Below, piece after piece: positions 19,361 through 59,618 of a stretch of DNA of 64,000 nucleotides. How positions within the stretch are numbered: position 1 is the first letter of the stretch; each line of letters begins with the position of its first letter. Source of the DNA: a bacterium (GTDB taxonomy: Bacteria; Sumerlaeota; Sumerlaeia; SLMS01; JAHLLQ01); assembly GCA_020444065.1 (NCBI GenBank), contig JAHLLQ010000003.1:320979-384978 (forward strand), written 5' to 3'. The position numbers were made by a program, and so were the translations under genes. A model generated the notes under the pieces. It was not told the origin of the DNA. It ran no database searches and was given only the letters and a program-made list of their open reading frames with translations.

Positions 19361-19390
19361 ACCACGGATTGCACGGAGGACACGGATGGG
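19361..19390 (+). repeat. triple CACGRA repeat, copy 1
   Basis: The units are CCACGGATTG, CACGGAGGA and CACGGATGGG. It lies between argG and a small membrane-protein gene and has the same skeleton as copies at 19695, 21039, 21165, 37101, 38865 and 59588. Confidence 0.65.
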
Positions 19391-19415
19391 AGAGAGGATT
19401 GGTTCGCTCACAATC

Positions 19416-19697
19416 TCATGATAGCATGAATGATAAAGGCGACCAGATGTAGTAATCTCCCACAAGGGCGCCGAGACAAAGAGCCGCAGAGTCCATCAAG
19501 GTCCAGAACGCCTCATCGTATCTTCGGCGACAGGCGAAGACGATTGCCACGATGAACATCGAGAGCCCCAGGAAATATAGGAAGTCCGAAACGAGCCACA
19601 GTCTTCCCCGAAGTCCTGTGCTCGGCAGTAGCGCTAGTGTCCCTAGAAAGGAAAGGGACTGGAGGATAAGGACCCAAATCCTGGGGGTCTTCTTCAT
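19416..19697 (-). CDS. small membrane protein of unknown function
   Basis: This 93-residue protein is almost entirely hydrophobic, with three likely helices (IWVLILQSLSFLGTLALL, LVSDFLYFLGLSMFIVAIVF, SAALCLGALVGDYYIW) and a short basic loop CRRRYDEAF. It has no recognisable family. The start codon lies inside a CACGRA repeat copy (19695-19723) and another copy lies 25 bases beyond the stop, so the gene is bracketed by inverted repeats as a movable unit might be. CTGAGGG provides a modest ribosome site. The gene could be spurious. Confidence 0.5.
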   Translation of the reverse strand: MKKTPRIWVLILQSLSFLGTLALLPSTGLRGRLWLVSDFLYFLGLSMFIVAIVFACRRRYDEAFWTLMDSAALCLGALVGDYYIWSPLSFMLS

Positions 19698-19723
19698 CCG
19701 TGCCCTCAGAGAAATCCGTGGTT
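19695..19723 (-). repeat. triple CACGRA repeat, copy 2
   Basis: On the minus strand it reads AACCACGGATTT, CTCTGAGGG, CACGGATG. The last ATG is the start codon of the small membrane protein, and the other end overlaps the stop codon of the DinB gene. Confidence 0.6.
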
Positions 19724-20639
19724 ACTGAATGCCCCGTCCGATCAGGTTCGCATTCACCGGCTTGATGCCCATTTCGCGCGCCCATACGGAGAGTTGCCCC
19801 ATGTGGTGGATTTCGTGGGCCGCCGCGTGGCGCAGGATCTCACCGTGCGTGAATGTCACCATTGTGCCATCGTCATCCGGAAGCTCCAGCGTGCAGTTCT
19901 CCTGCTCCGACTGCCAGTCGTCGAAGAACGCGAGGACCTCCGCGTGCAATCGTTCCGACAGCGCCTCGACCTTTTCTAACGACGCGAAGTCCTCGAACGG
20001 CTCAGAGAAATCCGGCTCTTGCTGCAGGATACGGATCCAACTGTATTCCACATCCACCACATGGAACAGCGTCGCCAGAATCCCACCGCGCCCCCCGGTC
20101 CGAGGCGCCAGCAACTCGGATTCCGAAACCGCCCGGCACCACTCGAACCACTCGCGCCGGACCTGCCAATTGTATTCGAAAAGTTTGAAGATTGCGCCCG
20201 CACGGCAGATGCCCGCAAGCCGCTCGCAGACGACTCGCCATTGGTAGCCATCTGAGCCCAGCGGTGGAAACAGGCTGCAGTATTTCGCGAAACGCTCCAG
20301 GGCCTGGCGTTGTACTTCGGTGAATGCCACAGGTTCGTCCTCGCCCGAGAGCAAGACGCGCAAGCTCCCATCGCGAAGCAAAACTACCGTGCTCTGCTCC
20401 AATCGCATCTGGAGATCGTCGAGTGCCTCTTCGGGCACTTCCGAGCCCGCCAGCAGTTGGTCCAGCGTCACTAGGGCCGCGCATCCCACCAGCCACGGAA
20501 GAACGCCCGGAGCCTCGTACATCGACGGAAAGCCGCCCCGCGTGACTTCGTGTGCGCGGGCGACCTCTTCGCCAGTCAGGGCGAATGCGGCGGCGATTTC
20601 CTCGCGGAGTCCCTCGATCTGCTCACGAAAAGGATCCAT
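19722..20639 (-). CDS. DinB-like domain protein
   Basis: The 305-residue protein has a C-terminal DinB/YfiT-type four-helix bundle (about residues 150-305). The putative metal-binding histidines are in LFHVVDVEYSWIRIL and ILRHAAAHEIHHMGQLSVWA, the classical three-His arrangement of the family. DinB proteins include thiol-dependent transferases and unknown stress proteins. The N-terminal 140 residues are a separate, acidic helical region (EQIEGLREEIAAAFALTGEEV) without a known match. A three-unit repeat abuts its 3' end, and the GxxExxY gene lies 24 bases upstream, possibly in the same transcript. Confidence 0.8.
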   Translation of the reverse strand: MDPFREQIEGLREEIAAAFALTGEEVARAHEVTRGGFPSMYEAPGVLPWLVGCAALVTLDQLLAGSEVPEEALDDLQMRLEQSTVVLLRDGSLRVLLSGEDEPVAFTEVQRQALERFAKYCSLFPPLGSDGYQWRVVCERLAGICRAGAIFKLFEYNWQVRREWFEWCRAVSESELLAPRTGGRGGILATLFHVVDVEYSWIRILQQEPDFSEPFEDFASLEKVEALSERLHAEVLAFFDDWQSEQENCTLELPDDDGTMVTFTHGEILRHAAAHEIHHMGQLSVWAREMGIKPVNANLIGRGIQ

Positions 20640-20663
20640 TCAGTCGCTCCTGCTCGGTGGCAA

Positions 20664-21026
20664 TCATCGTACAATCCGTTTCCATTCCAGCTTTGCTTTC
20701 TTGAAATTCACCAGCAGGCCCAGCTTCAAGTCCGTTATCGCCAGGTACCCCAGCATTTGTGCGATGTGCTCGTCGTGAAACCCGGTCACGACCTTGGGGT
20801 CCACGACTACCAAGTCGTCCACGATCATGTCCGGAATCAAGCGGCCGATGTGGCGGCCCTTGTAGAGAACTTCGAACACCGCTTGCTGATCCACCTTGTG
20901 GCCCCGCTCCTCCAACTCGAGGACCATCGCGTTCTCGTAGAGCTTCTCGTCCAGCCCGGGCCGGAGCGTGTTCAACACCTCCATGCCTGCGCCGATGATC
21001 GCCTCGCTGATCTCGGCATGTATCAT
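20664..21026 (-). CDS. GxxExxY protein, PD-(D/E)XK nuclease-like
   Basis: This 120-residue protein carries the signature GLDEKLYENAM, the motif that names the GxxExxY family. That family is placed in the PD-(D/E)XK nuclease superfamily (PDDEXK_3). The expected core is seen as GRLIPDMIVDDLVVVDPKVV, although the usual E-x-K is D-P-K here, a conservative change. QMLGYLAITDLKLGLLVNF is the conserved C-terminal part. No natural substrate is known. A strong GGAGG site lies just before the start, and directly upstream of that is a CACGRA repeat copy (21039-21070). The same repeat occurs at six other places in the window, which raises the idea of a repeat-associated nuclease. Confidence 0.88.
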   Translation of the reverse strand: MIHAEISEAIIGAGMEVLNTLRPGLDEKLYENAMVLELEERGHKVDQQAVFEVLYKGRHIGRLIPDMIVDDLVVVDPKVVTGFHDEHIAQMLGYLAITDLKLGLLVNFKKAKLEWKRIVR

Positions 21027-21038
21027 GACATTCCTCCA

Positions 21039-21070
21039 ACCACAGATTTCACAGAGCGCACGGATTGGGA
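21039..21070 (+). repeat. triple CACGRA repeat, copy 3, upstream of the GxxExxY gene
   Basis: The units are ACCACAGATT, TCACAGAGCG and CACGGATTGGGA. It ends 12 bases before the start codon of the GxxExxY gene, adjoining its ribosome-binding site. Confidence 0.65.
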
Positions 21071-21164
21071 GTCAGCCCCATACGCTCTCGTAATGGCTTG
21101 AGATAGTAAAAAATCGAAAATGAAAAGAAGTCGAGCAGAAAGGCTCGATCACGAGCACGAAACC

Positions 21165-21197
21165 TCCCATCCGTGCCATCCGAGAAATCCGTGGTTC
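21165..21197 (-). repeat. triple CACGRA repeat, copy 4
   Basis: On the minus strand it reads AACCACGGATTT, CTCGGATGG, CACGGATGGGAGG. It begins immediately after the TAA stop of the 200-residue gene. It faces copy 3 across about 95 bases. Confidence 0.65.
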
Positions 21198-21800
21198 TTA
21201 CGCGTCGAAAACCACCTGGAGGTCGGTTCCGTCGATCTGGTCGAGGGCGTCCATCAGCGGGCGGAGGGTGGCGTCGGCTTCGTTCAGCGCCGCCAGGACT
21301 TCCTCGTCTTCGGCGTACTGGCGGGCGAGCAGACCGAGGAAGCCGAGGTTCAGGCCGATGAATGCGGTGGCCAGCGGGGCCTCGTCAGGACCCAGCGCGC
21401 CGTCGCGGAAGATGAGCCGGCCCCAGAACGCGCGGATGTTCTCTTCGAAGACCACTGGGTCGATCTGCAGGGCTCGCAGATCCTCGGCGTCTTCGGGCGC
21501 TTCCGTTTCGATGATCTGCTGGGCGGCCTGATTCATGAACTCGACGTAGCCGCCGAACGCGGCCAGGTTCTCCGCCTTCTCCTCCGTCGTGTACTTGCCG
21601 AACCACTCGAAGACCTGCCCGGTCGTGAACGCGACGTCCTCCGAGCCGTCCTCGCGGCGAATATCGAAGTTATCGACCAAATAGGGGAAGAACTGGCCCA
21701 TCAGGCTGCAGAGATTGTAAAAGCCCGCGATATTCGCGAACTCCTCCATCTGCTGAGGCTCCTCGGCATCCGGGGTCAAAATTCCAAAATCGATACCCAT
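21198..21800 (-). CDS. acidic cytoplasmic protein of unknown function
   Basis: The start MGIDFGILTPDAEEPQQMEE at 21800 has a near-perfect GGAGGAG ribosome site; a frame extending further upstream reads through unlikely proline/arginine-rich sequence. The 200 residues are acidic and predicted helical (QMEEFANIAGFYNLCSLMGQF; EEVLAALNEADATLRPLMDAL), with no signal peptide or clear membrane span, though LATAFIGLNLGFLGLLARQY is hydrophobic. I recognise no family. A repeat copy abuts its stop codon. It is divergent from the large secreted protein at 22567. Confidence 0.65.
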   Translation of the reverse strand: MGIDFGILTPDAEEPQQMEEFANIAGFYNLCSLMGQFFPYLVDNFDIRREDGSEDVAFTTGQVFEWFGKYTTEEKAENLAAFGGYVEFMNQAAQQIIETEAPEDAEDLRALQIDPVVFEENIRAFWGRLIFRDGALGPDEAPLATAFIGLNLGFLGLLARQYAEDEEVLAALNEADATLRPLMDALDQIDGTDLQVVFDA

Positions 21801-22566
21801 GGGCAGTGCTCCTCCGGCGGAAATCGCCCGGGCTGTGTGCCGAGCGGGCTCCAGGCGAGGCCCCACGCGCCCCGCGAAGCAAGCGAAACATCGCCCGCCC
21901 GGTCGACGCTCAGGAATCGGTCGGGAAATCCGGCCCCTGGGACCTGGCGGCAACCCGGGGCGGGGAAACCTCAATCGGGGCAAGACACACATGTAAACGG
22001 CCTCTCTGGTAAAGCGATTTAGGGCCTGTGCGGCAGCATGTTTGACCGTTCCAACGTGAAGTTCCTGTCAGATCGTTTCCTCGGGGGAAGTTTCCGCTTG
22101 CGCGACAGACAATCCTGGGCGACCCTAACACTTGATCTCCCGAGGAGTGCGTTCTTTTGTAATAGACGCAAGTCGATCCAGCCCCACCGGCGGCGTGTTC
22201 GCGACACAAAGTCGGGCGTTTTTCCCCGGGAGAGTAGCACCAGACGCAACGGATCGACGACAGCGAGGGCCCCTCGAGCCAGGCATTCGTGCTGCCCGCA
22301 CGGCTGCCGTGCCCCGGCATCTTCCGCCCGAAGATGCGTTTTGGGGCAAGATTTCCTCGACACGGCCCATCGCTTGAGACACACTTCACCCCTTAGCCCA
22401 ATGTGTTAAGGGTGGAAAACCAATCGGAGGTGCCGGTCGCCAAAAGCCATTCGATCACGAACACCGCAGGTGATCTTAAGGAATTTCCCGGGAGGCCGAC
22501 CCCCTTCCGCACCGCAGTACCGGCCCCATGCGTGGGCCGCTCCAAATCAAACTAGGAGTTTGGTGG
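21801..22566. other. 766-base intergenic region, no gene seen
   Basis: Between divergent genes I find only short frames without ribosome sites. The stretch 22390-22550 probably forms a long 5' leader for the secreted protein, whose AGGAG is at 22554-22558. I see no riboswitch signature that I can name and none of the repeat families of this window. Confidence 0.4.
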
Positions 22567-37100: not shown

Positions 37101-37140
37101 ACCACGAAGTCACGAAGAGCACGAAGAAGAAGTCGAGAAA
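37101..37140 (+). repeat. triple CACGRA repeat, copy 5
   Basis: The units are ACCACGAAGT, CACGAAGAG and CACGAAGAAGAAG. It lies just after the glycosidase stop and before the paralogue pair. Copy 6 lies just after that pair. Confidence 0.65.
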
Positions 37141-59587: not shown

Positions 59588-59618
59588 ACCACAGAGGCAC
59601 GAAGGACACGAAGAGTGG
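59588..59618 (+). repeat. triple CACGRA repeat, copy 7
   Basis: The units are ACCACAGAGG, CACGAAGGA and CACGAAGAGTGGGG. Confidence 0.6.

Follow-up and report, generated by a model that had tools for sequence, protein, structure and literature searches.

The question raised by this locus is whether a short repeat that clusters beside a solitary nuclease-like gene belongs to a genetic system together with that gene. The initial annotation of the window, the 64-kb stretch of DNA analysed here, listed seven copies of a repeat of about 30 bp and proposed, by analogy with the REP/RAYT arrangement, that an adjacent GxxExxY gene encodes a nuclease that acts at or spreads the repeat. All seven copies are confirmed. 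A pattern scan allowing up to three mismatches recovers the four clustered copies (19361+, 19697-, 21039+ and 21170-), against 0.12 expected in dinucleotide shuffles and with 0 of 100 shuffles reaching four; the copies at 37101, 38865 and 59588 are missed by this fixed-spacing scan because their first spacing is 8 nt instead of 9, and they represent a second subtype, CACGAAG. The four clustered copies, which lie within 1.8 kb, do alternate in strand as first described, and are more exactly two inverted pairs with ACCAC outermost (19361/19722 and 21039/21195; Table 1). Their described contacts with the neighbouring genes also hold, in that one copy, just outside the GGAGG of the ribosome site, starts 13 bp upstream of the GxxExxY ATG (21026), and 2 bp separate the end of its pair from the stop codon of the gene at 21198; the arm at 19695-19722 shares bases with the stop codon of a DinB-family gene. 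The start codon of a supposed small membrane protein does fall within an arm, but the ORF of 93 aa may itself be spurious because neither Pfam nor NCBIfam has a match for it and none of the loci compared contains a homologue, and as a conserved cargo it is unsupported.

Table 1 Repeat copies, inverted pairs and associated genes, in window positions
Feature	Position	Strand	Remark
Repeat copy, CACGGAT subtype, left arm of inverted pair A	19361..19390	+	
Repeat copy, right arm of inverted pair A, overlapping DinB stop codon	19695..19723	-	
Inverted-pair unit A, 363 bp, ACCAC outermost	19361..19723	.	arms 86% complementary
93-aa ORF inside unit A, start codon in right arm, family not found	19416..19697	-	
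DinB-family protein gene, between unit A and GxxExxY gene	19722..20639	-	PF05163 E 5.9e-30
GxxExxY gene, PD-(D/E)XK nuclease fold (predicted)	20664..21026	-	TIGR04256, PF13366
Repeat copy, left arm of inverted pair B, 13 bp upstream of GxxExxY start	21039..21069	+	
Repeat copy, right arm of inverted pair B, abutting stop of gene 21198-21992(-)	21164..21196	-	
Inverted-pair unit B, 158 bp, gene-less hairpin-type copy	21039..21196	.	
Single repeat copy, CACGAAG subtype, intergenic	37101..37128	+	
Single repeat copy, CACGAAG subtype, directly after stop codon	38865..38892	+	
Single repeat copy, CACAGAG/CACGAAG subtype	59588..59615	+	

The gene is indeed a GxxExxY gene, its product scoring 126.4 bits against TIGR04256 (cut-off 35) and 117.8 bits against PF13366 (cut-off 22). 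An AlphaFold2 model (pLDDT 96, pTM 0.87) predicts a RecB/Cas4-like PD-(D/E)XK fold, for which the best Foldseek matches in the PDB are SSO0001 (a Cas4 protein), LHK-Exo and lambda exonuclease, at modest similarity (E about 1e-3, TM 0.54-0.63), followed by Holliday-junction resolvases; by sequence, the PDB holds no structure of the family. D, (E/D)xK and QxxxY residues are typical of RecB/Cas4-like nucleases, and in the GxxExxY alignment D66 and K78 are invariant and E76, Q90 and Y94 are conserved at 90% or more. The window copy keeps D66, K78, Q90 and Y94, with Asp in place of the near-invariant E76 and Pro as the next residue. The family differs from Cas4 in that the Fe-S cluster cysteines are absent, there being no conserved Cys in its invariant or nearly invariant columns.

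Inverted arms are a general feature of GxxExxY genes. A first sample comprised 80 loci from GTDB species (Bacteroidota, Acidobacteria, Planctomycetes, Cyanobacteria, Proteobacteria, Chloroflexi, Archaea and others), in which inverted repeats were sought de novo between the 300 bp on either side of the gene and counted at a score of at least 28. Arms were found in 60/78 loci, against 16 of 1011 control positions (1.6%) elsewhere in the same loci. When loci from Bacteria and Archaea are pooled (177, with locus L017/L084 counted twice), 132 (75%) carry matched inverted arms, one on each side and no more than 300 bp away, and about 25% have no detectable arms. The enrichment of adjacent copies at these genes, which had been put forward as a check on the original proposal, is thereby borne out. 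The arms consist of three to four tandem units of 8-9 nt, mostly of the CRCNRAG type (CACAGAG, CGCAGAG, CACGGAG, CACGAAG, CGCAAAG, CACCAAG and CACTGAG; others are CACGAAT and ACAGGATT), with ACC outermost, that is, inward-pointing, in 102 loci and innermost in six, and with a median arm-to-arm span of 473 bp. Motif and orientation are consistent across phyla, and arm similarity tracks GxxExxY protein identity (Mantel rho 0.39, against 0.16 for the largest permutation). Intergenic DNA often contains short repeats and hairpins, and low-complexity or terminator-like hairpins might in principle have come to lie near the gene by chance. This explanation, of negligible probability, is rejected by the shuffles, by the control positions, by a reversed-pattern control that is near zero in most genomes and by the constancy of motif and orientation across phyla. 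Two further kinds of unit were seen in passing: genome G009 (L156, L158, L159, L165) has conserved tandem CCCTTAG-like units (TTCCCTTAGCGACCCTTATGGCCCTTAGG) adjoining CACGGA repeats, perhaps a third arm code, and an ACAGGAT triple is present in L030, L318 and G645.

Set beside this general layout, the order in the window, pair A, DinB, GxxExxY and pair B, leaves the GxxExxY gene with no matched downstream arm (inverted-repeat score 20), and the locus is best interpreted as a form of the arm-gene-arm unit that has decayed or been rearranged. Its genome carries 29 copies of the general motif against four of the reversed control. For each of its three subtypes, CACGAAG, CACGGAT and CGCAGAT, a copy lies beside a separate GxxExxY gene at a distance of about 25-190 bp (C7:75150, the window gene on C3, and C6:172723), and a further GxxExxY pair on C4 has arms CGCAAAG/CGCAGAG.

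Many copies of the repeat have no gene between them. Gene-less inverted pairs form hairpins of about 62-123 bp in genomes that include G042, G062, G009 and Methanoperedens, with a sharp edge, typically TTC/ACCAC...GTGGT/GAA, beyond which the flanks are unrelated; the total reaches 124 copies in G042 (Acidobacteria) and 56 in the archaeon Methanoperedens. As a side observation, a CACAGAG hairpin in the latter (L272, G630:C36) lies within a larger inverted repeat, CCTATCCGAAAA...TTTTCGGATAGG, and looks like one small element nested in another. The number of copies depends on the GxxExxY gene, in counts uncorrected for phylogeny, so that neither of the two checks put forward with the original proposal refuted it. 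Among 248 Bacteroidota genomes, the genomes counted being mostly MAGs, repeats occur in 71 of 122 with GxxExxY and in 12 of 126 lacking it, with 772 copies in the former and 34 in the latter (raw counts, phylogeny uncorrected), and ten or more copies are found in 26 positive genomes against one negative. Genome size was considered as an explanation and rejected, the association persisting within each size class of at least 2.8 Mb. In 28 genomes there are more copies than their own arms explain, 407 in excess. Within the phylum of the window the repeats are present in 23/32 genomes that carry GxxExxY and in 0/8 of those that do not. About half of the sampled Bacteroidota genomes carry GxxExxY; the four-helix-bundle family TIGR02436 is commoner, and was rejected as a driver of CRCNRAG repeats since by itself it has no effect among these Bacteroidota (7/74 versus 5/52).

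Gene and arms together form a unit, and both this unit and the gene-less pairs move or have moved. One such case comes from genome G013, where two arm-GxxExxY-arm units (L316 and L319) are identical at 448 of 468 positions (96%); because these lie in unrelated flanks, which match at the random level of 22-27%, and identity ends just outside the arms, the unit must be able to move. A second pair of units within that genome is 89% identical, with different boundaries. In Bacteroidaceae (L181-L210), a unit of 473-521 bp sits exactly between radA and the next gene in six genomes, a junction that measures only about 5-40 bp in many relatives; L193 and L204, in which the right arm is decayed, appear to be relics. 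The six proteins at this site divide into at least two groups, which the arm motifs, CACAGAG and CRCAGAT, follow, and their smallest common clade takes in 120 of 170 tips under any rooting tried, in 115-aa trees that are weak. A single ancient insertion was rejected on the ground that the proteins do not group in these weak trees; their placement in separate clades, together with the difference in arm motif, suggests that the junction was invaded at least twice. Comparable polymorphism is seen for gene-less copies in Methanoperedens, where site B is empty (17-24 bp) in G082, G645, G643, G653 and G628 and holds differing triple-repeat hairpins or arms in G649, G632, G630, G636/G655, G637 and G652, and where the site A hairpins of G082 and G645 differ from each other and nine others have little or nothing at this site. 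CRCNRAG units showed no recognisable target-site duplication, either at the duplicated L316/L319 or at the radA junction. Viral origin or carriage was rejected, with one match in 2.9 million IMG/VR contigs, none among INPHARED phages and eight in 72,556 plasmid records; since they are nearly absent from all three collections, the elements are mainly chromosomal.

Insertions of this kind could also be read at the RNA level, with the arms pairing in the transcript as in the intervening sequences (IVS) of 23S rRNA, insertions into operons being tolerated or excised by RNase III, and the dispersed hairpins serving as protein-bound sites of RNA processing or regulation. Units do lie between co-oriented neighbours, as at the radA junction in Bacteroides and between fabD and fabG in Sphingomonas, several single copies in the window's genome are found just upstream of likely start codons, and in Coxiella the IVS, 428 nt long, has inverted ends of 28 bp and carries a four-helix-bundle ORF (PMC4990558). 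Neither the duplication of units nor the spread of gene-less copies is explained by such a model alone, however, and many copies are single arms that could form no stem. PD-(D/E)XK proteins are, moreover, mostly DNA nucleases, and we regard an RNA-level element as improbable. The Sphingomonas case (S. parapaucimobilis, L177:2437-2902) is a GxxExxY unit inserted within the fatty-acid operon.

A second alternative is that GxxExxY is a cargo or stabiliser, the arms being MITE-like ends that are moved by a host or third-party enzyme, such as a Y1/TIRYT transposase, with different small genes riding in the loop. Dispersed TIGR02436 genes (L281-L310) have inverted arms of tandem 8-nt units, TTCTAAG, TTCAAAG or TATCAAG, for example at G103:C22:241960-242330, G107:C24:168030-168393 and G328:C7:129714-130076. 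Arms of this same design are present at 17/30 TIGR02436 loci, and 15 of the 16 genomes with a TWCWRAG triple are TIGR02436-positive; TIGR02436 with its TWCWRAG arms is a parallel system. In addition, a 698-bp GCTACTC...GAGTAGC element, with perfect 8-bp target duplications (L076:4380-5077, TGCCCCCG; L088:4460-5156, CCCGGGGA), carries GxxExxY as its sole recognised gene and no recognisable transposase. GxxExxY can therefore ride as cargo, here in an element with unrelated ends, and RAYT-like genes flanked by TIRs ('TIRtrons') have been described (PMC3733652). Because the non-nuclease four-helix-bundle genes have arms of the same design, albeit of different motif, a nuclease is not required for this layout, which counts against a role for the GxxExxY nuclease and, together with the GCTACTC element, makes a third-party mobiliser possible. 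Random cargo would nevertheless not be expected to have its own arm motif for each gene family (CRCNRAG versus TWCWRAG), repeat number follows GxxExxY and not TIGR02436, and arm and protein similarity are correlated. We therefore consider the cargo explanation unlikely, if deserving of attention, and favour a system in which gene and repeat belong together.

Such a system displays individual features of several known elements. RAYT genes invariably lie between two REPs in inverted orientation (PMC2817692), and a solitary gene between two inverted repeats is likewise the arrangement at 132/177 GxxExxY loci, the window gene being one that is without its downstream arm. Both systems also have dispersed gene-less copies tied to the gene, often as REPIN- or BIME-like inverted pairs, and in both the repeat subtype matches the gene and the association is old and widespread. 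The analogy drawn by the initial annotation thus stands for the architecture and the mobile unit, whereas the nuclease as spreader of the repeat is a role that we infer. RAYTs differ in that the enzyme is an HUH/Y1 transposase rather than a RecB/Cas4-like PD-(D/E)XK protein (PF13366/TIGR04256), and REPs are palindromes tagged with GTAG or CGTC, in contrast to untagged arms of three to four direct 8-9-nt units; the GxxExxY system moreover extends to Archaea and most of the bacterial phyla sampled. The 23S rRNA IVS, which has been called a selfish element, resembles the GxxExxY unit in its size of about 430-500 bp and in the single small ORF in the loop of inverted ends, but has the S23p/four-helix-bundle fold (TIGR02436), another arm motif and an rRNA site; the window gene has protein-coding neighbours and belongs to a family other than TIGR02436. 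MITEs and insertion sequences share terminal inverted repeats, gene-less derivatives and insertion polymorphism with GxxExxY units, which in contrast lack any known class of transposase, show no target duplication that we could see and have arms that are themselves tandem repeats. A 2005 study put forward the small solitary PD-(D/E)XK proteins of COG4636 (Uma2/DUF820) as selfish genes that proliferate (PMC551604). GxxExxY proteins are similarly small and solitary, although they form a separate family. To our knowledge, no dispersed repeats or matched arms have been reported for COG4636.

With a probability that we put at about 60%, GxxExxY genes and CRCNRAG triple repeats are two tiers of one REPIN/RAYT-like mobile-element family, and we propose the following mechanism for its spread. 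The first tier is a unit of about 470 bp, made up of an arm (three to four tandem 8-9-nt units, CRC-N-RA-G/T/A, ACC outermost), the GxxExxY gene and an inverted arm, and the second comprises solitary arms of that subtype together with inverted pairs that enclose no gene and form hairpins of about 60-160 bp. The minimal RecB/Cas4-like PD-(D/E)XK protein may recognise the tandem units, the likeliest form being hairpins that are extruded or single-stranded as DNA is replicated, and could cut at the arms, whereupon host repair or replication would copy the unit. TnpA-REP is thought to act on REPs, and gene-less pairs might analogously be mobilised in trans, which would make the nuclease the putative mobiliser of the repeats. 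The window's genome holds several arm subtypes, each beside its own GxxExxY gene, with the cluster in the window a degenerate case. More tentatively, and somewhat less likely than not, these could be pan-prokaryotic mobile elements outside the known transposase classes, in which a solitary Cas4/RecB-like PD-(D/E)XK nuclease would act on arms of tandem units that it recognises and so propagate its own gene as well as hairpins that contain none, alongside a parallel four-helix-bundle (IVS) class with an arm code of its own.

A search of published open-access papers, two of which contain the term GxxExxY, returned no description of function, mobility or flanking repeats for this family and nothing relevant on the repeat itself, and the system is, as far as we could find within that scope, previously undescribed. 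A very common 'hypothetical' family thereby gains a testable biology, and a repeat that litters many genomes is accounted for. The findings suggest that REPIN/RAYT-like systems have arisen more than once with unrelated enzymes, and they raise the question of a sequence code, that is, of which protein residues match which arm subtypes.
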